A stretch of DNA of 64,000 bases from Psychromonas sp. Urea-02u-13 (GTDB lineage Bacteria; Pseudomonadota; Gammaproteobacteria; Enterobacterales; Psychromonadaceae), in assembly GCF_002835995.1 (NCBI RefSeq), contig NZ_PJBZ01000039.1, positions 62,001-126,000 of the forward strand, given 5' to 3'. The notes under the pieces were generated by a model. It was given only the letters and a program-made list of their open reading frames with translations, did not search any database and had not been told where the DNA came from. Positions 3,248-15,826 of this stretch are shown piece by piece (within the stretch, counting starts at the first letter, position 1; every line of letters starts with the position of its first letter). The position numbers and the translations under genes are program-made.

Positions 3248-4114
3248 TCAGTCGCCTAAAGGCTGTCTATCCACACCGCCACGGTGTTTTTCTAAATCTA
3301 TTTTTAAACGTCTTAATTTTTCACGTGATTTACGTTTATGTTTAATCGCTAACTCTGTCGCTAACACATCAATGGCTGCCATCATCACGTAACGTGAGGC
3401 CGTTGGTTTGAAAATGTAATCCGTTTCAATCGGTTCCATCGGAATTAATACATCGGCAATGTTCGCCAGCGGTGTACCTGCTTTAGTAATGACCACTGTG
3501 TTTGAGTGGTGCAAACCTGCAATTTCAGCCGCTTCTAATACATCGGGAGAATAACCGCCCATTGATAAACAAATTAATGCATCGTTGCTGTCCATCGTTG
3601 CCGCTGCCATGCGCATTAACATCGGGTCGCTATAAGCGGTCGTTGCATAACCTAAACGGAATAAACGATATTGCATCTCTTGCGCTAACATCGTTGACCC
3701 ACCACCCACACCAAATACTAAAATTTGGCGCGCGCCACTGAGTTTCTCAATCGCGCTATCTACTATTTTTTGAGTAATTAAATGGCAGTTATGTTCGAGT
3801 GCGGATTTTATGCCGTCATAAATACCTGAAATGCCCGTAGGCTCGGTATTAACATCCTGAGAAAAACGTTTTCCAATCACTAAAGATTGTGCAATACGTA
3901 ATTTAAGTTCACGTACATTTTTACATAACACAGCTTTTGCAAAGCGCGTAATGCTCGCTTCACTCACCTCTGCTGCTTGAGATAGTTCACTAATGCTGGC
4001 ATTCGCTGCAAAGTTAAGATCACTTAATATAAGCTGTGCGACTTTTTTTTCGGCATCTCTTAATTGGCTAAAACCTTCATTAATCACTGCCACAATGTCT
4101 AAATCGTTATCCAC
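3248..4114 (-). CDS. RpiR/MurR-type transcriptional regulator (HTH + SIS)
   Basis: 288 residues: an N-terminal HTH_6 domain (SISELSQAAEVSEASITRFAKAVL) and a SIS sugar-phosphate-isomerase fold (ILVFGVGGGSTMLAQEM, ALICLSMGGYSPDV, VVITKAGTPLA). The family senses phosphosugars or related metabolites and usually controls the adjacent catabolic genes, here the deacylase/ridA/symporter run and probably the divergent PLP enzyme. I choose the GTG at 4114: AGGGAG lies six bases upstream and the protein then begins VDNDLDIV, as normal for the family. An in-frame ATG at 4204 would add 30 residues translated mostly from the end of the neighbouring MITE-like element and is probably spurious. Confidence 0.88.
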   Translation of the reverse strand: MDNDLDIVAVINEGFSQLRDAEKKVAQLILSDLNFAANASISELSQAAEVSEASITRFAKAVLCKNVRELKLRIAQSLVIGKRFSQDVNTEPTGISGIYDGIKSALEHNCHLITQKIVDSAIEKLSGARQILVFGVGGGSTMLAQEMQYRLFRLGYATTAYSDPMLMRMAAATMDSNDALICLSMGGYSPDVLEAAEIAGLHHSNTVVITKAGTPLANIADVLIPMEPIETDYIFKPTASRYVMMAAIDVLATELAIKHKRKSREKLRRLKIDLEKHRGGVDRQPLGD

Positions 4115-4139
4115 GCTAAGCTCCCTAAATTTGGTAAAG

Positions 4140-4400
4140 TACCCGTTATCACTCAAAATGCATTTATCAGTCACTAGCTTGGGTATCAGGACAAGGCGCA
4201 ACATGATGACAATGGCTAGCCCTTATCAAATGTTGCAACGCAGTAATGATGTTCAAGCTAGCGACCCGCAGGGCAAGCCGTGAGATAAATATCTTCGTTG
4301 TTAGTAAGCTTCGATTGAACAAGTTAGACCTTCAACTTCCTGCCTAGAAACTATTCACCTCACGGCTTGCTGATTTTTGCGTCTTGAATGATGACGGGTA
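4140..4400. mobile_element. MITE-like element, copy 1 (261 bp)
   Basis: Begins TACCCGTTATCACTCAA and ends TTGAATGATGACGGGTA, i.e. terminal inverted repeats of about 17 bp (two mismatches) with TA at both outer ends, consistent with TA target-site insertion as in Tc1/IS630-type elements. It is closely similar over its whole length to 13245-13505, which is also 261 bp. It encodes no protein. It sits 25 bp upstream of the RpiR start, between that gene and the divergent PLP-enzyme gene, so it separates the two promoters. Confidence 0.85.
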
Positions 4401-4469
4401 CAAATTATAGTAATCACTATAAATAATCCTCGATATGGATCACAGTTATTATTTTAATGTTTGAAACTA

Positions 4470-5921: not shown

Positions 5922-8345
5922 ATGAAAATCAAACCTTTAGCTCTACTTACTCTTAGCCTGTCGGGTTTCGCTTCGCTAGGCGCTTTTGCGGCAGCACCGA
6001 ATACCGATTTAAATTTAATGCCTTATCCACAAGAGGTGGTATTAAACCAAGGAGTGCTAAAGGTTGATGCAAACTTTTCCATCGCATTAACGGGATTCCA
6101 ATCGCCACGTTTACAAGCAACGGCGCAGCGATTAGCGGAACGTATCGAATTACAAACGGGATTATTCCTGAAACAACCGATGACGCGCGATAGCAAAACA
6201 GCATCACTGATTATTAATGTCAAAGAGGGGCCTGCAAGTACTTATCCACAAGTCAAAGAAGACGAATCTTATTCGTTAATTGTCAAAAATCAGCAAGCAA
6301 TGATTACCGCTAACTCTCCTTACGGCGCGATTCATGCTATCGAAACGTTATTACAATTAGTGACGAATGATAATCAGGGCGCCAGCATTCCTGCACTGAC
6401 CATTAAAGATGAACCCCGTTTTAAATGGCGTGGAGTGTTGTTAGATACGGCGCGTCACTGGGTCGAAATCGACACCATTAAACGCCAGTTAGATGGTATT
6501 GCTTCGGCTAAATTAAATGTGTTCCATTGGCATTTAACCGATGACCAAGCATGGCGTGTGGAAGTCAAAAGCTACCCGAAACTTACGGATGTGGCGAGTG
6601 ATGGAAAGTTTTATAGCCAAGAAGAGATTAAAGAGGTGGTCGCTTACGCTACTAATTTAGGTATTCGTGTTATTCCAGAAATCGATGTACCAGGTCATGC
6701 CTCAGCGATTGCAGTAGCTTACCCTGAGTTAATGTCTGCACCGGGACCGTATCAAGAAGAGATTAATTGGGGAGTGCATAAACCTTTATTAGACCCAAGC
6801 AATGCAGATGTTTATACCTTTGTGGATAAAGTGGTGGCAGAGATGGCCGCTTTATTCCCCGATGAATACTTACATATTGGCGGCGATGAGGTTGACCCAA
6901 CACAATGGAATGAAAGTAAAAAAATAAAACAGTACATGGAGAAAAATAGCTTAGCGGATGATAAAGCGTTACATGCTTTCTTTAATCAAAAAGTAGAAAC
7001 TATTTTAGCGAAACATGACCGTAAAATGATCGGTTGGGATGAGGTTTATCACCCTGATTTACCCAAGAGTATTGTTATTCAATCATGGCAGGGACAAGAC
7101 GCTTTAGGTGATGCCGTTAAAGATGGTTTCCAAGGTATTTTATCAACGGGTTTTTACGTTGATCAACCCATGGATACGAGCTTCCATTACCGTAATGAAA
7201 TTTTGCCACAACCTTTAACGGTTGATGATCAACTGCATAAAGGCGAGACCTTTGAAACATGGTCGTTCGATATGCCAAGAAAACGTGGTAGCAACGTGCA
7301 AGGTAGTTTTACGCTAATCACTGATGTAAAAGGTGTGCAACGTGGTTTTATCGACTTTAAAGGTAAAGCACGCCGTGGTGTTCAAGATATTCAGCTTGAG
7401 AAAGGGGTCACTAGTTTTTGGTTAGATACTTGGATGGGTCATACCAGCCCTCGCTTTGAAACCCAAGGCAATAAATTAACAGGTTATACACGTGCCGGTA
7501 ATGGCCAGTATGTGATGACGGGTGAAAAGATTGCTTCATCGGCACAAAAAGGCACTGCAATTCCTGATAATCGCAAACCTAATAGTGTGCCGAGCGAGCA
7601 AGCGGATCGTATTTTAGGCGGTGAAATAACATTATGGGCAGAGAACATTAAAGATGATTTAGTCGATTTACGTTTATGGCCTCGCTCGTATGCGATTGCT
7701 GAACGTTTATGGTCTGATGTCAGCCTCACCGATGAAACCAGTATGTATAAACGTTTAGACGCGATGGATAACTGGTCAACGGTATCTGTTGGCTTGCAAC
7801 AACAATGGCAAGAGCATAAAGGTTTCTTACGTTTAAGTAATGGCCAAGATGTTCGCCCGTTACAGGTATTAGCGCAAGCGGTTGAACAAGCACAGTATTA
7901 TCATCGTCATCATGAAAAATCAGCAGCCGGTAATTACCATAAATTCGAACCTTTAAATCGTTTTGCAGATGCATTACCTGTGGAAAGTAACCAAGCACGC
8001 AGATTAAAACTTTTAGTTGATACGTGGACGGAAGATAAGTCGAATACCGAAGCAAAAGTAGAGATGCAAACGATGTTTAAACTGTGGGTAGATAATACCC
8101 CTGCAGCGCTCAAACTGGTTGATGCGAACTACCTGTTAACTGAGATAAAACCTGTCGTTGAATCAACAGATAAAATAGCTAAATTAGGCTTAGAACTGAT
8201 TGATTATATTGAGTCAGGCAAAACTTACCCAGCAGCTAAAGTAAAACAAGCAAAACAGATTATCTTTGCCGCACAACAATTCCAAGACGAGCTAGTCGTT
8301 CGTGCCGCTTACCCTGTTGAGAAGTTACTTAATGCAGCTTATTAA
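5922..8345 (+). CDS. Beta-N-acetylhexosaminidase, GH20 (exported)
   Basis: 807 residues. A signal peptide with a cleavable AFA-AAP end is followed by the GH20b domain (LMPYPQEVVLNQGVLKV) and the catalytic barrel: RFKWRGVLLDTARHW, FHWHLTDDQAWRVE, PEIDVPGHASA and LHIGGDEVDPTQW, where Asp322-Glu323 is the catalytic pair for substrate-assisted cleavage of terminal GlcNAc/GalNAc. About 150 residues (roughly 405-560) inserted between the barrel core and GGEITLWAENI look like an extra beta domain. The enzyme acts in the periplasm or outside on chitobiose, chitooligosaccharides or muropeptide-derived sugars. It shares the plus-strand unit with the PLP enzyme and is closed by a strong terminator. Its 3' end has a deleted copy at 15654-15742. 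Confidence 0.95.
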   Translation: MKIKPLALLTLSLSGFASLGAFAAAPNTDLNLMPYPQEVVLNQGVLKVDANFSIALTGFQSPRLQATAQRLAERIELQTGLFLKQPMTRDSKTASLIINVKEGPASTYPQVKEDESYSLIVKNQQAMITANSPYGAIHAIETLLQLVTNDNQGASIPALTIKDEPRFKWRGVLLDTARHWVEIDTIKRQLDGIASAKLNVFHWHLTDDQAWRVEVKSYPKLTDVASDGKFYSQEEIKEVVAYATNLGIRVIPEIDVPGHASAIAVAYPELMSAPGPYQEEINWGVHKPLLDPSNADVYTFVDKVVAEMAALFPDEYLHIGGDEVDPTQWNESKKIKQYMEKNSLADDKALHAFFNQKVETILAKHDRKMIGWDEVYHPDLPKSIVIQSWQGQDALGDAVKDGFQGILSTGFYVDQPMDTSFHYRNEILPQPLTVDDQLHKGETFETWSFDMPRKRGSNVQGSFTLITDVKGVQRGFIDFKGKARRGVQDIQLEKGVTSFWLDTWMGHTSPRFETQGNKLTGYTRAGNGQYVMTGEKIASSAQKGTAIPDNRKPNSVPSEQADRILGGEITLWAENIKDDLVDLRLWPRSYAIAERLWSDVSLTDETSMYKRLDAMDNWSTVSVGLQQQWQEHKGFLRLSNGQDVRPLQVLAQAVEQAQYYHRHHEKSAAGNYHKFEPLNRFADALPVESNQARRLKLLVDTWTEDKSNTEAKVEMQTMFKLWVDNTPAALKLVDANYLLTEIKPVVESTDKIAKLGLELIDYIESGKTYPAAKVKQAKQIIFAAQQFQDELVVRAAYPVEKLLNAAY

Positions 8346-8375
8346 TAATTAACTTGTATCAGTTTGTTAGATGAA

Positions 8376-8410
8376 TAAAAAAGCCAATCAGCAATGATTG
8401 GCTTTTTTTG
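8376..8410 (+). terminator. Rho-independent terminator after the hexosaminidase
   Basis: A long perfect stem AAGCCAATCA/TGATTGGCTT with a GCAA tetraloop-like turn, an A-run before and a T-run after, 30 bp past the stop codon. Confidence 0.92.
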
Positions 8411-8445
8411 TTTTGATTTATTTATGCATCTGTTGCTAACACCAT

Positions 8446-8569
8446 AAACCCTGCAGGACTGAAGTCCCACTTCCCAATAACGCGTTACCAACGTGGCCTT
8501 GGAAGTGAGCCTTTAGGCTTGCCTCTGTTGCAGCATCGACAAACCCTGCAGGACTGAAGTTCCACTTCC
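8446..8569. repeat. REP-like palindromic repeat, one full (8446-8531) and one partial (8541-8569) copy
   Basis: The full copy runs from AAACCCTGCAGGACTGAAG to GCCTCTGTTGC and can fold: CACTTCC near 8468 pairs with GGAAGTG near 8501, with smaller stems GGACTGAAGTCC and AGCCTTTAGGCT. A truncated second copy of the first 29 bases follows directly. Another copy lies at 15743-15826. The gap 8411-8771 holds nothing else except the presumed promoter of the regulator. Confidence 0.75.
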
Positions 8570-8774
8570 GAGGAACATTAGCCTGTTTTTCTTCATTTAT
8601 ATAAATAGCTCTCATATGTTCAGTTAATCGCGTTTTCTACCTATCCGAGTTATGCACTTGTTTTTTAAGTCTAAGTAACGTGGGTATATGATCAGATAGT
8701 ATTTTTATTTGCTGTGTTGTCAGGAAAAATATTGGATAATATGGCAATAATATATTATTGATGGAGAAAATGTG

Positions 8775-9740
8775 ATGGGTAAAAAAATGACCATGGCGGA
8801 GATTTCAAAACGACTTGGGATATCAACAATGACCGTGTCACGTTACTTTAATGATGGTTATGTCTCGGCTGAGAACCGCCTTAACATTGATGCTATCGTC
8901 AAAGAAAGTCATTATACCCCCAATATATTTGCTCGCTCAATTCGTAGCCAATCTAATATTATTGGTTTCGTTGCCCCTCGGATTGAATCCTATACAACGA
9001 GTTTAGTGATTAAAGGGGCACTGGCTGCCGCTAATGAATCACAAGTCCGAATGCTGTTTCATGCTACAGGGTTTAGCCATGAGTCAGAATGCCAAGCCGT
9101 GAGGGAGTTTAATGGCTTAAATGCATTGGGCACTATCATTATTGCTTCAAAGCACAGTGTCGAAGAGCCTTTTTATCAAACCTTAGATAATGTGCTATTT
9201 ATTGGTAAAAACACCCCCCATCATTGCTGTTTATATTACCCTGAACAAGCCGCGATTAAAGCGTTAGTCTCACAAACCATCACTCAGTTAAAACAGCAGC
9301 AGGCACCGCTCGAAGCCATACATTATATTTATGATGAACGCATGCTATCAAGCCGTACTAAATTGATGCAAGAAACCATTACTGACACGATACCAGAGCT
9401 GAATTTTTCGTTGCAAGCATTGGCTGATTCGGAGCAAAAAATCGGCTACCAAGAAATTCAATTACAGCCCAATAATGTCTATTTTTGTGCCACCGATAAT
9501 ATTGCCATTCGTCTATATCGCCGCGCCAAAGAACAGCAATTAAAAATTGGTCATAACCTATGGATTGTAGGCATAGGGGATTATGACTACAGTGATTTAT
9601 TAGTACCAAGTCTTAGTACCGTTGCTTTTAATTATTATCAAGTGGGCTACCAGGCCGTTAAAAAATTGATTAAGCGTGATTTCAGTTCAGCTGAAGGCCA
9701 ATTCGATATAAAAATCAGAGAAAGCTCACAGTTTATTTGA
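8775..9740 (+). CDS. LacI/GalR-family transcriptional regulator of the alpha-glucoside cluster
   Basis: 321 residues. The N-terminal HTH (MAEISKRLGISTMTVSRYFNDGYVS) and hinge (NIFARSIRSQSNIIGFVAP) are typical of LacI proteins, followed by a periplasmic-binding-protein-like effector domain ending at the C-terminus. TreR and MalR-type repressors are the closest functional analogues by context: the next genes are a GH13 glucosidase and a PTS permease, with a LacI-type operator between. I prefer the ATG at 8775, eight bases after GGAG, over the GTG one codon earlier. The effector (free sugar or sugar phosphate) is not evident. Confidence 0.88.
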   Translation: MGKKMTMAEISKRLGISTMTVSRYFNDGYVSAENRLNIDAIVKESHYTPNIFARSIRSQSNIIGFVAPRIESYTTSLVIKGALAAANESQVRMLFHATGFSHESECQAVREFNGLNALGTIIIASKHSVEEPFYQTLDNVLFIGKNTPHHCCLYYPEQAAIKALVSQTITQLKQQQAPLEAIHYIYDERMLSSRTKLMQETITDTIPELNFSLQALADSEQKIGYQEIQLQPNNVYFCATDNIAIRLYRRAKEQQLKIGHNLWIVGIGDYDYSDLLVPSLSTVAFNYYQVGYQAVKKLIKRDFSSAEGQFDIKIRESSQFI

Positions 9741-9777
9741 AAACGTATTGCATCTAATTTAATTCAATCTCACTATA

Positions 9778-9795
9778 TGTGTTAACGATAACGCA
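9778..9795. promoter_or_regulatory. Candidate LacI-family operator upstream of the GH13 gene
   Basis: TGTGTTAACGATAACGCA is an 18-bp near-palindrome (six of eight positions match between half-sites) with the central CG step common in LacI-family operators. It lies 17-34 bases before the GH13 start, directly downstream of the regulator gene. Function is inferred from position and form. Confidence 0.5.
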
Positions 9796-9811
9796 TGGTG
9801 AGATTGAAGAG

Positions 9812-11545
9812 ATGGAACACGCCAATAATATGCACTTAAAGCCACTTGCGTGGTGGAAAAAAGCGACTGCCTACCAAATTTATCCCCGTAGTTTTTATGA
9901 TACAAACCAAGATGGTATTGGTGATATTGAGGGGATCATTGCCAAGCTGGATTACTTTGCTGATTTGGGTATTGATTTATTATGGATTTGTCCATTTTAT
10001 GAATCACCGAATGATGATAACGGTTACGATATTAGTGACTATCAAGCAATTCATCCTGACTTTGGCACCCTTGAGGATGTCGACCGATTAATCAGTGCCG
10101 CTCATGATCGTGGCATTCGTATTATTATGGATTTAGTGATCAACCACACTAGCGATGAGCATCCATGGTTCATTGAGTCTCGTCAAAGTAAAGATAGTCC
10201 TAAACGTGATTGGTATATTTGGCGTGATGGTTGTGAGCCTACAGCTGAAAAGCCGACTCGCGATCCAAACAACTGGGAAAGTATTTTTCATGGTAGTGCA
10301 TGGGAATATGATGCCAAAACTGCGCAATATTACCTGCACCTATTTTCTAAAAAGCAGCCCGATCTTAATTGGGAAAACCCTGAAGTTAAACAAGCATTGT
10401 TTAACATGATTCATTGGTGGTTGGCTCGTGGTATTGATGGTTTCCGTGTGGATGCTATTAGCCATATTCAGAAACAAGCAGGTTTACCTTCTTTACCCAA
10501 TCCAAAGGGTGAAAATTATGTTTCTTCATTTGACTATCACATGAATGTTGAAGGTATTGATAAGCCTCTCTATGAGCTAAGAGATCAAGCGTTTGCACCC
10601 TTTGATATTGTTACCGTTGGTGAGGCAAATGGGGTCGAAGCAGAAAACGCATTAACTTGGGTTGCCGAAGCCAACGAACATGAGCAAGGCGGTGTTTTTA
10701 ATATGATTTTTCAGTTTGAACACATGAAATTATGGTCGGAAGAACAAAGTCGCGAGCGTTTTGATTTAGTGGGATTTAAACAAATTTTATCGCGTTGGCA
10801 AGATGCATTAGAAGGCAAAGGCTGGAACGCACTTTATTTAGAGAATCACGATCAAGCCCGTAGTATTGATACCTTTGCTCATCCTGATTATTGGTATGGC
10901 AGTGCTACCGCTTTAGCAAGTTGTTATTTTTTGATGAAAGGCACCCCTTTTATTTATCAGGGCCAAGAGATCGGCATGGTAAATCGTCAGTTTACTTCTC
11001 TTAACGACTTTAATGATGTCTCTGCTAGAAATTTAATTCAAAAGTTACAGCAACAAGGACAAAGCGACGAAAATATCTTGGCGTTGTTAAATCAAGTATC
11101 CCGTGATCATAGTCGTTTACCAATGCAATGGAATGACCAGGATTTTGCTGGTTTTTCTGAGGTGTCGCCTTGGTTTGCTGTGAATCCCAATTACACCGAT
11201 ATCAATGTTGAACAACAACAGCAAGATCCAAACTCGATTTTGAATTTTTATAAGCAGTTGATTGCTCTACGTAAATCAAATGAAAGTTTGGTGGTTGGTC
11301 GTTATCAATTGATCCTGCCTGACGATCCTAATATCTATGCTTATCAACGCATTGCTCAAGATATGACATGGACCATTATTACCAATTTAAATGCACAAGA
11401 GAGCATCGTTAATATCGACAGTGCACAGTTAGGGGCGTTAATGCTTGATAACCAAACTCTCAATAATGAACACAGTCGGTCAGATTTTATAACTACGCAA
11501 ATAGCCCCCGCTTATGCCGCGTATATATTTGTAAGAAAACATTAA
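9812..11545 (+). CDS. GH13 alpha-glucosidase (oligo-1,6-glucosidase/maltase subgroup), cytoplasmic
   Basis: 577 residues, no signal peptide. The conserved GH13 regions are DLVINHTS, the QPDLN motif of the oligo-1,6-glucosidase subfamily, DGFRVDAISH (nucleophile Asp214), VGEAN (acid/base Glu271) and LENHDQAR (Asp347). The residue after the nucleophile is Ala; in this subfamily Val there goes with alpha-1,6 and Ala or Thr with alpha-1,4 preference, so maltose-like substrates are favoured. Trehalose-6-phosphate hydrolases (TreC) have a related sequence and cannot be wholly excluded. I start at ATG 9812, nine bases after GGTGAG; the GTG at 9779 lies in the candidate operator. Next comes the PTS permease, 59 bp away. 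Confidence 0.88.
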   Translation: MEHANNMHLKPLAWWKKATAYQIYPRSFYDTNQDGIGDIEGIIAKLDYFADLGIDLLWICPFYESPNDDNGYDISDYQAIHPDFGTLEDVDRLISAAHDRGIRIIMDLVINHTSDEHPWFIESRQSKDSPKRDWYIWRDGCEPTAEKPTRDPNNWESIFHGSAWEYDAKTAQYYLHLFSKKQPDLNWENPEVKQALFNMIHWWLARGIDGFRVDAISHIQKQAGLPSLPNPKGENYVSSFDYHMNVEGIDKPLYELRDQAFAPFDIVTVGEANGVEAENALTWVAEANEHEQGGVFNMIFQFEHMKLWSEEQSRERFDLVGFKQILSRWQDALEGKGWNALYLENHDQARSIDTFAHPDYWYGSATALASCYFLMKGTPFIYQGQEIGMVNRQFTSLNDFNDVSARNLIQKLQQQGQSDENILALLNQVSRDHSRLPMQWNDQDFAGFSEVSPWFAVNPNYTDINVEQQQQDPNSILNFYKQLIALRKSNESLVVGRYQLILPDDPNIYAYQRIAQDMTWTIITNLNAQESIVNIDSAQLGALMLDNQTLNNEHSRSDFITTQIAPAYAAYIFVRKH

Positions 11546-11604
11546 ATTATATTTATGGCAGGGCGTTGATGACGTTAACCTGCATTTCAACCAAGGAATT
11601 AGTT

Positions 11605-13233
11605 ATGAGTAAATTACTATCATTTGATTTTTGGCAACGATTTGGAAAATCACTTATCGTTGTTATCGCGGTGATGCCAGCAGCCGGTATCATGATATCA
11701 CTAGGTAAAGTTGTCGCAATGTATGCTGGTGGCATCAGTGCTATTGAAACAATAGGCTATATTATGGAAAATATAGGTTGGGGGATTATTGTTAACCTTC
11801 ACCTGTTATTTGCTGTCGCTATTGGTGGCTCGTGGGCAAAAGAGCGTGCAGGCGGTGCATTTGCAGCGCTCATTGCTTTCATATTAATTAACCGTACCAC
11901 TGGGGTTATATTAGGCGTAAATAGCGAGATGCTGATTGACCCTCAGGCGACTGTGATGAGTTTATTTGGAACTGCGCTGCCTGTCTCTCAATTTTTCACT
12001 GATATTTTAGGCGCACCTGCACTAAATATGGGTGTTTTTATCGGTATTATGTCCGGCTATTTAGGTGCCAACTTATATAACCGTTACTATGATTTCTCTC
12101 GGTTACCTGAGGCATTAGCCTTTTTTAACGGTAAGCGTTTTGTGCCTTTTGTGGTTATTTTCTATTCGGTGATCATTGCATTTGGTTTATCGATAGTATG
12201 GCCTTTAATTCAAGGTGCACTCAATGATTTTGGTCAATGGATTGCAACCTCTAAAGATACTGCACCCATCACAGCTCCTTTCTTGTATGGCACGTTAGAG
12301 CGTTTATTACTGCCGTTTGGTTTACATCACACCTTAACAATTCCAATGAATTACACCGAGTTGGGTGGTTCTTATGAGCTTTTGACTGGGGCTAGTGCGG
12401 GTTCAAGCGTTTATGGTCAAGATCCATTATGGCTTGCTTGGATAAGTGATTTAAATAATCTTAAATTATCCGATCCGGCAACTTACCAGCATTTATTGGA
12501 TACTGTGCATCCAGCACGTTTTAAAGCGGGCCAAGTCATTATAGCCGCGTCATCATTGATTGGGATTGGGCTTGCGATGTATCACTGTGTTGATAATGAT
12601 AAACGTAAGCAATATAAACCGATGTTTTTATCCGCCTGTCTTGCCGTGTTATTAACGGGCGTGACTGAACCCATTGAATTCATGTTTATGTTCATTGCTC
12701 CCGTGTTGTATGTTGCACACGCGGTGTTAACAGGTATTGCATTTGCATTGGTGGATGTTATGGATCTACGTGTACATGCCTTTGGTTTGATTGAATTACT
12801 CACTCGTATACCCATGATGATTTCAGCGGGCATAGGCGGTGATTTAATTCGTTTCGCGTTGGTGTGTATTGTTTTCTTTGTCGTTAACTACGGACTGTTT
12901 CGTTTGCTAATTGTGAAGTTTCATTTACCAACACCGGGGCGTATGGGTAACTATCTGGATGAAAATTCAGAAGCCATGTTGCAAGAGGATAAGCTTGACA
13001 TTATTATTCAAAATTTAGGCGGGCGTGACAATATTGCTGAGATTGATGCTTGTATGACCCGCTTGCGTATAACGGTTAATGATCCGCTATTGGTTGCTGA
13101 ATATTCGTTATGGAAATCTACGGGAGCACTTGGATTAGTGGTTAAAGAGCAGGGGGTACAAGCTATTTATGGTCCGGGAGTGGATGTGATTAAATCTAGG
13201 TTACTTGATAAGTTTTCAGCACAACCTGCGTAA
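11605..13233 (+). CDS. PTS EIICB permease, glucose/maltose family
   Basis: 542 residues. The EIIC domain has about ten membrane segments and the LLLPFGLHHTL and GVTEPIEFMFMF motifs of the glucose/glucoside superfamily. It contains a long loop with GQDPLWLAW, seen in maltose/glucose-type permeases. A linker (PTPGRMGNY) leads to EIIB, where Cys in EIDACMTRLRI is the phosphorylation site. There is no EIIA domain, so phosphate must come from a separate Crr-type EIIA. The enzyme imports and phosphorylates its sugar; the neighbours (alpha-glucosidase, EEP phosphatase, glucokinase) suggest maltose or a related alpha-glucoside. AAGGAA six bases before ATG 11605 decides the start; an upstream in-frame ATG at 11566 has no such site. 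Confidence 0.9.
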   Translation: MSKLLSFDFWQRFGKSLIVVIAVMPAAGIMISLGKVVAMYAGGISAIETIGYIMENIGWGIIVNLHLLFAVAIGGSWAKERAGGAFAALIAFILINRTTGVILGVNSEMLIDPQATVMSLFGTALPVSQFFTDILGAPALNMGVFIGIMSGYLGANLYNRYYDFSRLPEALAFFNGKRFVPFVVIFYSVIIAFGLSIVWPLIQGALNDFGQWIATSKDTAPITAPFLYGTLERLLLPFGLHHTLTIPMNYTELGGSYELLTGASAGSSVYGQDPLWLAWISDLNNLKLSDPATYQHLLDTVHPARFKAGQVIIAASSLIGIGLAMYHCVDNDKRKQYKPMFLSACLAVLLTGVTEPIEFMFMFIAPVLYVAHAVLTGIAFALVDVMDLRVHAFGLIELLTRIPMMISAGIGGDLIRFALVCIVFFVVNYGLFRLLIVKFHLPTPGRMGNYLDENSEAMLQEDKLDIIIQNLGGRDNIAEIDACMTRLRITVNDPLLVAEYSLWKSTGALGLVVKEQGVQAIYGPGVDVIKSRLLDKFSAQPA

Positions 13234-13244
13234 TTCGTTCTTTA

Positions 13245-13505
13245 TACCCGTTATCATTCAAAGTGCTTTGTTCAGTCGCTAGCTTGTACACCAAGGCAAG
13301 GCGCAACATGATGACAATGGCTAGTCCTTATCGAGTGTTGCAACGCTGAATTGGTTTGCAAGCTAGCGACCCGTAGGGCAAGCCGTGAGGCAAACATCTT
13401 CGTTGTTAGAAAGCTTCGATTGAACTAGTTAGACCTTCAGCTTTCTGCCTAGAACCTGCTCACCTCACAGCTTGCTGAATTTAGCAACTTGAATGATAAC
13501 GGGTA
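13245..13505. mobile_element. MITE-like element, copy 2 (261 bp)
   Basis: Ends TACCCGTTATCATTCAA and TTGAATGATAACGGGTA are perfect 17-bp terminal inverted repeats, with TA outermost. It is the same length as copy 1 (4140-4400) and very similar throughout, including shared internal blocks such as GGCGCAACATGATGACAATG and AGACCTTCA. It begins 12 bp after the PTS gene stop. No coding capacity. A short hairpin at 41078-41114 carries the same ends. Confidence 0.88.
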
Positions 13506-13541
13506 TATATTAGCTGTAAATAACAAGTGAACAATATCGAT

Positions 13542-13567
13542 AAACGCAGTATTGATGCTGCGTTTTT
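13542..13567 (+). terminator. Rho-independent terminator between the PTS gene and the EEP phosphatase
   Basis: AAACGCAG/CTGCGTTT stem with an eight-base loop, continuing into TTTTT. It sits 32 bp before the phosphatase start, so it may work as an attenuator or separate that gene from the PTS operon. Confidence 0.75.
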
Positions 13568-13598
13568 ATCTCCGTACATTTAAATAAGCGAATAATAA

Positions 13599-14405
13599 AT
13601 GAAGTTATTGACGCTAAATACCCACAGTTGGCAAGAAGATAAACAGTTAGAAAAGTTGGATATAGTCGCGCAAGCCATTATTGAACAAGGGTGTGATGTG
13701 ATTGCATTACAAGAGGTTAATCAATGCCAAGATAGCTCGGTCGTTGATGCCAGTATATTAAGTAATCATCCCGTGCTAGCTAATAACTATGGTTATTTAT
13801 TACAGCAAAAATTGGCGGAGCATGGTCATCACTACCAACTTACATGGGATTTTGTTCACCAAAGTTATGAAGTATATCAAGAGGGGTTAGCATTTTTGAC
13901 GCGACTGCCCATTCTTGAACATGAGGTCATTGATTTAAATGATAACTATGATGTGAGTTTTTGGAAACATCGACGAGCAGTGCGTATTAAAGTGGCTTCT
14001 CAACAAGGTGAATTCGATTTTTATAATTGTCATTGCGGCTGGTGGAATGACTCAGAGAGCCCATTTGAGGATCATATCAAGCGTATCACGGCGACATTAT
14101 CAACAGGGTTGAGCTTTCTATTAGGTGATTTCAATAACCCGAGTCATATACGCAATGAAGGTTATGATTATGTATTACAGCGCGGTTTAATTGATTGTTA
14201 TGAGATGGCAGAAAAAAAAGATGCTGGTACCACTGTGATTAAAAATATTGATGGTTGGCAACACAATAGCCAGGCTTTACGGATTGATTTGATTCTTAGT
14301 AATCAATTGGTTGTGGTAAAGCAGCATCAGACGATTTTTAATAACGATTTTTATCCGATTGTGTCGGATCACTTTGGGGTGTTGGTTGAAGTGGAAGTTG
14401 CTTAG
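13599..14405 (+). CDS. Endonuclease/exonuclease/phosphatase-family protein, MapP/RgfB-like; predicted maltose-6'-phosphate phosphatase
   Basis: 268 residues, no signal peptide. The EEP fold is shown by LTLNTHSW at the N-terminus (Asn7), ALQEVNQ with metal-binding Glu39, LLGDFNNPSH and the closing SDHFGVLVEV. The opening is the type seen in RgfB and in MapP, which in Enterococcus faecalis dephosphorylates maltose 6'-phosphate made by a PTS and is encoded just downstream of the maltose permease. Here too it directly follows an EIICB gene and precedes glucokinase, with an alpha-glucosidase two genes up. A cytoplasmic sugar phosphatase is therefore much more likely than a nuclease, but the substrate is inferred from family resemblance and context. 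The ribosome site is weak. Confidence 0.78.
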   Translation: MKLLTLNTHSWQEDKQLEKLDIVAQAIIEQGCDVIALQEVNQCQDSSVVDASILSNHPVLANNYGYLLQQKLAEHGHHYQLTWDFVHQSYEVYQEGLAFLTRLPILEHEVIDLNDNYDVSFWKHRRAVRIKVASQQGEFDFYNCHCGWWNDSESPFEDHIKRITATLSTGLSFLLGDFNNPSHIRNEGYDYVLQRGLIDCYEMAEKKDAGTTVIKNIDGWQHNSQALRIDLILSNQLVVVKQHQTIFNNDFYPIVSDHFGVLVEVEVA

Positions 14406-14536
14406 TTTTTATTAACTCATTGATTGCTTTGCAAAGAGTGTATCCATGAAATTAATAATAGGTTTGTTTATTTTAGAACTCATCGCATGTTTATGAATCA
14501 TATTTGCTATAACTATAAATTATTCAAGGAGAAAAA

Positions 14537-15511
14537 ATGTTATCTGTTGTTGCTGACGTTGGTGGTACAAATATCCGACTTGCTGTTTGTGATGTTAAAA
14601 CGGGGGAGTTGAGTCAATTAAATGAATTTGCTTGTGCCGAATTTATAACACTTGAAGTTGCACTGACTCAATACTTTGAAATATTACAAGGTGAAGTGAA
14701 ACACCTTTGTATTGGTATTGCTTGTCCCGTTGAAAATGATCATGTTGTGATGACCAATTTAAGTTGGGATTTTTCTAAGCAAGCACTTAAAGAAAAATTA
14801 AAATTAGCGTCGTTATATGTCATCAATGACTACACTGCAATTTCATTCGCGGTACCCTTTCTTTCTTCAGTAGAAAAAATACAAGTCGGTGGTGGTGAAT
14901 GTAAAGAGAATGCTGTTACGGCTATCTTTGGTCCTGGGACAGGGCTCGGTGTTTCACACATTATTAAATCGGCGGATAAATGGATCAGTTTAGAGGGTGA
15001 GGGTGGACACGTAAGTTTCGCTGCTAATACACCAGAACAGGCTGATATTTTATGTTTACTACAAGCGCAATTTGGTCACGTTTCTGCAGAGCGTATTTTG
15101 TCCGGGCAGGGTTTAGTTAATTTGTACCAGAGTCTTTGTGCTTTATCTAAACGTGAAGTTAAATTTGAGCATCCGAAAGAGGTCTCTAAAGCTGCATTAG
15201 ACGGCAGTTGTGATATGGCACGGAGAAGTCTGGATGTTTTTTGTCAAGTTATGGGCAGTTTTGCTGGTAACCTTGCATTAAACCTAGCTTGTACAGGAGG
15301 TGTTTACATCGCGGGCGGTATTGTACCGCGCTTTGTTGAGTTATTTCAATCTAGCGAGTTCAGGCATTTCTTTGAAGATAAAGGGCGTTTTAAAGCGTAT
15401 CTATCATCTATTCCCACTTTTTTAATTACCCATAATAACCCTGGGTTATTGGGAGCGAGTGTTTATCTTCGTCAAGAGTTAGGTTTATTAAATAATGATG
15501 CATTAGGGTGA
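14537..15511 (+). CDS. glk: Glucokinase
   Basis: 324 residues, close to E. coli Glk (321). It has the ATP-binding DVGGTNIRLAV at the N-terminus, the catalytic-Asp segment VINDYTAISFA, FGPGTGLGVS, EGEGGHVSFAA with the glucose-binding Glu/His, and IAGGIVPRF near the C-terminus. It phosphorylates cytoplasmic glucose with ATP. In this cluster it would use glucose released inside the cell by the GH13 enzyme after the incoming sugar has lost its PTS phosphate, which explains why a PTS locus carries a glucokinase. AAGGAGAAAAA precedes the ATG. It is transcribed with, or shortly after, the EEP phosphatase and closed by a terminator. Confidence 0.93.
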   Translation: MLSVVADVGGTNIRLAVCDVKTGELSQLNEFACAEFITLEVALTQYFEILQGEVKHLCIGIACPVENDHVVMTNLSWDFSKQALKEKLKLASLYVINDYTAISFAVPFLSSVEKIQVGGGECKENAVTAIFGPGTGLGVSHIIKSADKWISLEGEGGHVSFAANTPEQADILCLLQAQFGHVSAERILSGQGLVNLYQSLCALSKREVKFEHPKEVSKAALDGSCDMARRSLDVFCQVMGSFAGNLALNLACTGGVYIAGGIVPRFVELFQSSEFRHFFEDKGRFKAYLSSIPTFLITHNNPGLLGASVYLRQELGLLNNDALG

Positions 15512-15653: not shown

Positions 15654-15742
15654 GGCAATTGCCATAAACTCGAACCTTTAAATCGTTTTGCAGACGCATT
15701 TAGGATTAGAACTGATTGATTATATTGAGTCAGGCAAAACTG
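15654..15742 (+). pseudogene. Relic of a GH20 hexosaminidase 3' end with internal deletion
   Basis: Positions 15656-15701 match the intact hexosaminidase gene at about 7931-7975 (CGAACCTTTAAATCGTTTTG is identical), and the next stretch matches 8185-8228 (GAACTGATTGATTATATTGA identical). About 208 bp between them is missing. The relic then runs straight into a copy of the REP-like repeat that lies 100 bp downstream of the intact gene, so a second deletion removed the true gene end. It encodes nothing useful and records a segmental duplication. Confidence 0.85.
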
Positions 15743-15826
15743 ACCCTGCAGGACTAAAGTCCCACTTCCCAATAACGCGTTACCAATATGATTTTGGAAG
15801 TGAGCCTTTAGGCTTGCCTCTGTTGC
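15743..15826. repeat. REP-like palindromic repeat, further copy
   Basis: Same sequence family as 8446-8531 (CCCTGCAGGACTAAAGTCCC to GCCTCTGTTGC) with changes mainly in the loop. Immediately follows the hexosaminidase relic. The rest of the gap up to 15949 is featureless apart from the presumed promoter of the next gene. Confidence 0.8.

Follow-up and report, generated by a model that had tools for sequence, protein, structure and literature searches.

Organization of the locus

A 64,000-nucleotide stretch of contig NZ_PJBZ01000039.1 from Psychromonas sp. Urea-02u-13 (hereafter the window) contains a gene cluster that we read as a candidate cassette for the uptake and degradation of maltose through the phosphotransferase system (PTS). 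The cluster spans 8772-15511, with all of its genes intact and on the plus strand, and comprises a lacI gene, a putative operator, a glycoside hydrolase of family GH13, a PTS permease of the EIICB type, a protein of the endonuclease/exonuclease/phosphatase (EEP) superfamily, and a glucokinase (Glk) (Table 1). An original prediction from these letters had grouped the four enzyme genes into one cluster, with a gene like mapP just downstream of the permease gene. Family searches agree with these four assignments, the genes are intact and co-oriented, and the MapP-like gene does occupy that position in the window. The arrangement is not a chance one, as the order LacI-GH13-EIICB-EEP recurs in Psychromonas, Vibrio, Photobacterium, Enterobacteriaceae, and Cetobacterium in our neighborhood survey. 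The open reading frame (ORF) listed for the hydrolase begins with a GTG at 9779; the ATG at 9812 is used for the table and for residue numbers.

Table 1. Features of the candidate maltose cassette, with positions in the window
Feature	Position	Strand	Basis
LacI-family regulator, opening gene of the cassette	8772..9740	+	PF00356 and PF13377 above cut-off; precedes GH13 in relatives too
Predicted LacI-type operator ATGTGTTAACGATAACGCAT, conserved 20-bp near-palindrome in the lacI/GH13 gap	9777..9796	+	motif scan
GH13 subfamily-31-type alpha-glucosidase, predicted maltose-specific	9812..11545	+	active-site residues; subfamily from nearest relatives
EIICB of a predicted maltose PTS, MalT type	11566..13233, likely start ATG 11605	+	TIGR02003; identity to B. 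cereus MalT
MITE-like (miniature inverted-repeat transposable element) insert, 33-nt terminal inverted repeats	13243..13507		inverted-end search, gap comparison
EEP-superfamily protein, predicted maltose 6'-phosphate phosphatase (MapP-like)	13599..14405	+	PF03372, 3TEB, E. faecium relative, model, co-occurrence with MalT-type EIICB
Glucokinase, E. coli Glk type, optional cassette addition	14537..15511	+	PF02685 (381.3 bits); TIGR00749 above cut-off

A constant pair with exchangeable partners

We surveyed 394 genomes of the order to which Psychromonas belongs, counting the EEP protein at E<=1e-30 and MalT-type EIICB as matches above the cut-off of TIGR02003. The EEP protein is found in 14 of these genomes and the permease in 14, the two sets are identical, and the genes are adjacent at 15 of 15 places, with 24-386 nt between the matches. 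The EEP gene lies downstream of the permease gene at 8 of these places and upstream at the other 7, all of which belong to another family of the order (f9). A plain count puts the chance of identical sets at 5e-26, or at 4e-10 for 6 of 115 genera, both figures ignoring descent.

What stands next to this pair varies. A GH13 gene is beside it at 26 Gram-negative loci (one of them, L011, cut by a contig end) and at 5 Bacillota loci. In all 7 f9 genomes, MalQ plus GlgP are found there, with GH77 and phosphorylase domains confirmed in L049 and L051; MalQ-type partner families were domain-checked at three loci. GH65 plus pgmB accompany the pair on an Enterococcus faecium plasmid and a Lactococcus plasmid, and Faecalimicrobium (L025) has both GH65 and GH13 beside it. 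Two samples of Bacillota genomes contained the EEP family in 8 of 398 and 8 of 291, 15 genomes in all; apart from eight of these that are taken up below, GH13 lies beside the pair in 4 and MalQ in 3 (at three loci), and at one locus, L134, the order is EIICB-EEP-ROK gene-GH13. The hydrolytic version is not peculiar to Gram-negatives, as it also occurs in Bacillota; Cetobacterium (Fusobacteriota), a Gram-negative from another phylum, has it as well.

The enzymes that accompany the pair use unphosphorylated sugar, and a dephosphorylation step is therefore needed between them and the PTS. Because the pair is constant while its free-sugar partner is exchanged (GH13, GH65 plus pgmB, or MalQ plus GlgP), sugar-phosphate phosphatase is the likeliest role for the EEP protein, a conclusion drawn from context, family, and logic.

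Two further arrangements were seen in this survey. MalQ and GlgP form one ORF of 1257-1277 aa adjoining the EEP and EIICB genes in 4 of the 7 f9 genomes (L046, L047, L049, L050), and the single ORF of L049, with GH77 and phosphorylase domains, is a possible fused amylomaltase-phosphorylase. In three large Bacillota genomes (L129-L131, 6.5-7.3 Mb), an EEP homolog without a PTS adjoins one common gene set.

The EEP protein

Public records label this protein "endonuclease/exonuclease/phosphatase family protein." Its only Pfam match is PF03372 (32.9 bits, cut-off 24.5), and its sole significant sequence relative in the PDB is 3TEB (E 5.6e-47), an EEP protein of Leptotrichia buccalis whose structure title gives no function. 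A profile of 24 EEP relatives again returned 3TEB as the only significant match in the PDB, with DNase gamma next at E 0.05, and on this sequence evidence a nuclease or sphingomyelinase was rejected. In the AlphaFold model (pLDDT 89, pTM 0.91), 3TEB is the nearest fold (Z 37.2), and Foldseek ranked the mannosyl-6-phosphatase BT3783 (4C1R) as the protein after 3TEB. The residues N7, E39, H145, D177, N179, D257, and H258 are present in 45 of 45 aligned rows, and we take them to have the catalytic-type roles that they hold in the EEP family.

The LTLNTHSW opening to which the original prediction had pointed is real, and an E. faecium plasmid protein linked to malT has MTLNTHSW. The gene of that protein follows malT beside maltose phosphorylase, which is the mapP arrangement, and the window protein is 40% identical to it. 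The stretch that follows H145 differs among the EEP proteins: it is GWW or SWW in those linked to GH13 or GH65, NLP in those linked to MalQ/GlgP in f9, and GWW, GRW, and GKY in three MalQ-linked proteins of Bacillota. The closest PDB entry to the window protein by sequence and fold, 3TEB, lacks the GWW stretch, which occupies 147-149 in the window protein, and groups with the f9 MalQ/GlgP-linked proteins. The E. faecalis structure 3L1W was considered as a MapP structure and rejected, since at E up to 1 the E. faecium protein encoded with malT has 3TEB, and not 3L1W, as its only PDB match.

The permease and its predicted substrate

The EIICB scores 843.9 bits against TIGR02003 (cut-off 649.85), a model that itself states no substrate, and it contains PTS_EIIC and PTS_EIIB domains with the EIIB cysteine, C496 in the numbering of the listed ORF, intact. 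It is 67% identical over 453 residues to the B. cereus chain 5IWS, listed in the PDB as Enzyme II and which we take to be MalT, 58% identical to the EIICBA encoded on the E. faecium plasmid, and only 31% identical to E. coli MalX. The protein has no EIIA domain, and the genome contains one EIIA-Glc-type match, on another contig. From its similarity to MalT we infer that the permease imports and phosphorylates maltose.

The same route could instead serve another alpha-glucoside, such as maltulose, turanose, or maltotriose, with maltose as a minor substrate. The partners of the EEP protein vary by clade, as does the stretch after H145, and this may reflect either different substrates or only descent. 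Given the level of identity to B. cereus MalT, and residues in the GH13 enzyme that are linked to the preference of BspAG13_31A for alpha-1,4 disaccharides (see below), we think another principal sugar unlikely.

In Vibrio maritimus (L012, 6462-7915), the EIICB is split into two overlapping ORFs, through a frameshift or a sequencing error.

The GH13 hydrolase

The hydrolase matches the Alpha-amylase family of Pfam (501.6 bits), and its highest-scoring relatives in the PDB are two alpha-glucosidases, 5ZCB (693 bits) and 2ZE0 (692), followed by the oligo-1,6-glucosidase 1UOK (561) and the GH13 entry 5BRQ (467), which we take to be the trehalose-6-phosphate hydrolase of B. licheniformis. The alanine after the nucleophile, from which alpha-1,4 hydrolysis had been predicted, is indeed there: the pair is D214-A215, and A215, H218, E271, and N273 correspond to A200, H203, E256, and N258 of BspAG13_31A, the Bacillus sp. 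AHU2216 enzyme of 5ZCB. A200 presumably has the role after the nucleophile that the prediction gave it. This signature is present in 17 of 17 aligned rows of cassette hydrolases (31 such loci being available) and in 23 of 27 rows overall; the 4 rows without it are E. coli TreC, the TreC of the Psychromonas genome itself, a second GH13 of that genome, and the nearest GH13 of genome G689. According to the accessible text on BspAG13_31A, His203 and Asn258 bind the glucose at subsite +1, and Asn258 is key to the preference for disaccharides (PMC10096246). The window enzyme shares most other compared positions with BspAG13_31A as well, but differs from it at 329 and 332 among these and also at 386. 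From these conserved specificity residues we infer that the window enzyme hydrolyzes maltose, and the predicted alpha-1,4 specificity is supported by the active-site residues that it shares with BspAG13_31A, a maltose-specific alpha-1,4-glucosidase.

A different scheme would have the GH13 enzyme split the phosphorylated disaccharide directly, as TreC does, leaving the EEP protein only to relieve sugar-phosphate stress or to dephosphorylate glucose 6-phosphate. Such a scheme would fit the 41% identity of the enzyme to E. coli TreC and its match to TIGR02403, which scores highest for it among the NCBIfam models. The score, however, is 571.1 bits against a cut-off of 799.05, and the residues that the TreC of E. 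coli has in common with that of this genome (K143, V200, L203, S258) are I, A, H, and N in the window enzyme. Identification as TreC was rejected on these two counts, and the genome has its own TreB-TreC pair at a separate locus, which speaks against the caveat in the original prediction that the enzyme might be a trehalose-6-phosphate hydrolase. GH13 enzymes have a closed -1 pocket, and the glucose of maltose 6'-phosphate that has to occupy it is the one bearing the phosphate; the hydrolases that to our knowledge act on maltose 6'-phosphate belong to GH4. Both points count against direct hydrolysis, which we consider very unlikely.

On this contig, a second glucosidase cluster lies upstream at a distance of about 53 kb, with a GH13_31-type enzyme (54.8% identical), a glucokinase, and an ATP-binding cassette (ABC) ATPase gene close by. 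A search of the genome for GH65 gave no match. The proposal that hydrolysis and glucokinase replace maltose phosphorylase here is supported by this result together with a hydrolase of the predicted free-maltose type.

Glucokinase and the proposed route

Among the Gram-negative loci fetched, Glk directly follows the EEP gene only in the window and in two P. arctica copies. In an E. coli island, glk is 2.3 kb upstream of the cassette, and a ROK-family gene belongs to the operon at one Bacillota locus; in the Psychromonas genome as a whole, three glucokinases are clear and a fourth match is weak. The earlier statement that the four enzymes "make sense only together" thus applies to EIICB, EEP, and a free-maltose enzyme and not to Glk, which is outside the conserved core. 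That core consists of LacI, operator, GH13, EIICB, and EEP, and the linked Glk is a local Psychromonas addition.

If the parts work as their families suggest, the EIICB, with the genome's EIIA-Glc, would import maltose and phosphorylate it to maltose 6'-phosphate, the EEP protein would strip the phosphate to give free maltose, the GH13 would cleave this to two glucose, and Glk, by its family membership, would convert glucose to glucose 6-phosphate. Separate evidence supports each of the predicted maltose-type PTS, MapP-like phosphatase, and alpha-1,4-specific GH13, and on genomic grounds we regard it as highly likely that the locus is a LacI-controlled maltose cassette combining phosphorylating import, dephosphorylation, hydrolysis, and glucokinase.

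The predicted operator

The sequence ATGTGTTAACGATAACGCAT at 9777-9796, matching on both strands, is the only place in the window found at <=3 mismatches. Shuffled controls gave a mean of 0.06 matches, and two matches in 1 of 100 shuffles. The motif RTGTTAWCGNTAACRCA occurs in 29 of 152 loci, namely 25 gammaproteobacterial cassette loci, three re-fetched pieces of these, and a GH13 contig of genome G306; the 25 are all of the gammaproteobacterial loci available that cover the gap between lacI and the next gene. It was not found in the Cetobacterium cassette, and the genome's other glucosidase cluster (L074) had no match nearby at <=3 mismatches. The 20-bp near-palindrome is most simply taken as the predicted operator of the linked LacI protein.

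Spread, mobility, and the strength of the reading

Trees were built for EEP, EIICB, and GH13 (the last by a quick method), and they agree on the main gammaproteobacterial groups, grouping the enterobacterial copies with those of Vibrio metschnikovii and setting Psychromonas beside Vibrio. The best named match of the window EEP protein is in P. arctica (94%), and the distribution in the genus group is patchy, with the EEP protein in 4 of 24 genomes, this one included. At 83% identity, it is found on 11 Leclercia and Enterobacter plasmids out of 61 plasmid records matched; the two Leclercia plasmids that were opened both have LacI-GH13-EIICB-EEP. Among complete E. coli genomes it is present in 1 of 5426, within a region rich in insertion sequences. 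The cassette moves horizontally.

On the Leclercia plasmid pLEC-5e18 (L155, 7459-12807), the cassette has pco genes for copper resistance on one side and sil genes for silver resistance on the other, and a transposase gene of IS1 is next to it.

Several observations weigh against the reading of the pair as import permease and sugar phosphatase, or limit how it can be stated. The EEP counts were limited to E<=1e-30, with weaker relatives outside the count. In 4 of the 15 Bacillota genomes (L129-L132), there is no EIICB beside the EEP gene, although L132 has a lone EIIA gene nearby, and in another 4 (L023, L127, L128, L133) the pair has none of the listed partners beside it. P. marina (L004) has no GH13 beside the pair, and the operator motif stands directly before EIICB. 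A search of the pair-only genomes for GH13 elsewhere found a homolog of 55-58% identity in 4 of 5; the fifth, G689, had no close homolog (best 48%). In G306, the pair is at a contig end, and a GH13 of 88% identity with the operator motif is on another contig. In the EEP tree, the malT-linked Enterococcus protein (from E. faecium, E. faecalis MapP not being in the tree) and the window protein belong to different deep clades, with a weak root split (72/19), and membership of the window protein in MapP therefore rests on context and the identity given above. The EIICB tree joins f9 with E. faecium and MalQ-linked Bacillota (100/100), whereas the EEP tree joins f9 with 3TEB and other Bacillota (97/90), so the two genes have not always traveled together. 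Finally, the other EEP enzymes listed, among them mannosyl-6-phosphatase, TDP2, and sphingomyelinases, all align with the model at Z of about 21-26, and the fold does not separate sugar phosphatases from the rest. The modeled fold fixes the EEP superfamily and not the substrate. As to the original prediction's proviso that the protein might fall with nucleases or sphingomyelinases, it does not do so by sequence, but fold alone does not choose among these activities.

If the EIICB were mainly a facilitator that does not phosphorylate, the EEP protein could have an unrelated role, for example as a nuclease or phosphodiesterase. A fold common to many activities and the Bacillota homologs without EIICB leave some room for this. 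We nonetheless hold it to be extremely unlikely, as the EIIB domain is intact, its cysteine included, and an unrelated role does not explain the identical occurrence of EEP and MalT across the 394 genomes.

With the pair read as permease and phosphatase, we think it probable, with less assurance than for the cassette itself, that MalT and the EEP phosphatase constitute a general mobile unit of several phyla that tags, imports, and untags the sugar and can be plugged onto any free-maltose enzyme, be it a hydrolase, a phosphorylase of GH65, or an amylomaltase together with a phosphorylase. The first recognized Gram-negative form of the unit would then be the LacI-GH13-EIICB-EEP cassette of gammaproteobacteria.

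Other features of the window

The gap between EIICB and EEP is 365 nt in the window and 37-102 nt at the ten other gammaproteobacterial loci measured, the difference being due to the MITE-like insert. The ends of this element are ATACCCGTTATCATTCAA; a further pair, each end having two mismatches, is found at 4139-4401, and this second copy overlaps the 5' end of an RpiR-like ORF (3248-4204). To the right of Glk, 15654-15826 is a remnant of the 3' end of an upstream hexosaminidase gene and its trailing repeat (7929-8531), with internal deletions, and the LacI-to-Glk block is therefore flanked by direct repeats. A scan of the window for promoters and terminators gave little above expectation, with 33 promoter-like and 9 terminator-like sites where 26.2 and 6.1, respectively, were expected.

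Energetic cost and relation to known systems

The proposed route costs one phosphoenolpyruvate (PEP) and two ATP, the latter at glucokinase, per maltose, which is one ATP more than with phosphorolysis. If it operates, it is more expensive than taking maltose up by the PTS and then splitting it by phosphorolysis or with a phospho-glucosidase, and this raises the question of why PEP is spent on importing maltose only for the phosphate to be removed, and of what benefit the tag brings. Import by an ABC transporter followed by hydrolysis has an equal or higher cost.

If our reading is correct, the logic of MalT-MapP, known from lactic acid bacteria among the Gram-positives, also holds in Vibrionaceae, Psychromonas, and Enterobacteriaceae and, with another partner enzyme, in one more family of that order. 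A protein annotated only as EEP would gain a testable function, and there would be a reason for a free-maltose GH13 to sit in a PTS cluster. We found no description of a Gram-negative MalT-MapP-GH13 route in the accessible text of the open-licence PubMed Central literature, subscription papers being mostly outside this scope; the available part of PMC4052901, on LacI regulons, has no mention of Psychromonas, and those of PMC8290834 and PMC11046441 contain nothing on such a route. The parts are of known kinds, and their hydrolytic MalT-MapP combination in Gram-negatives is new as far as these searches reach.

The MalT-MapP-MalP maltose route of E. faecalis was reportedly described by Mokhtari et al. 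in 2013. As far as the accessible parts of the sources go, E. faecalis MapP is a maltose-6-phosphate phosphatase, with SMU_2046c of S. mutans a suggested homolog (PMC3737437), and in 2012 a gene of unknown function was noted to accompany malT in four Gram-positive species, which include E. faecalis and S. pneumoniae (PMC3302838). On that footing, the cassette and the E. faecalis route share a MalT-type permease gene followed by a gene for an EEP-family phosphatase, with a free-maltose enzyme completing the pathway. They differ in that GH13 and glucokinase would replace the GH65 maltose phosphorylase and pgmB, in that the window EIICB has no EIIA of its own, and in the Gram-negative host; the EEP identity that we measured is to the malT-linked E. 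faecium plasmid protein and not to E. faecalis MapP. S. mutans, in the available text, likewise has MalT with an EEP-family neighbor, SMU_2046c, and uses an amylomaltase/phosphorylase route with MalQ/GlgP encoded elsewhere (PMC3737437), a module whose linked form is seen in the f9 genomes. The MalP-MalA system of B. subtilis, as far as the accessible text describes it, takes up maltose by the PTS as well, but its 6-phospho-alpha-glucosidase splits the phosphorylated disaccharide directly and no phosphatase is involved (PMC3302838).

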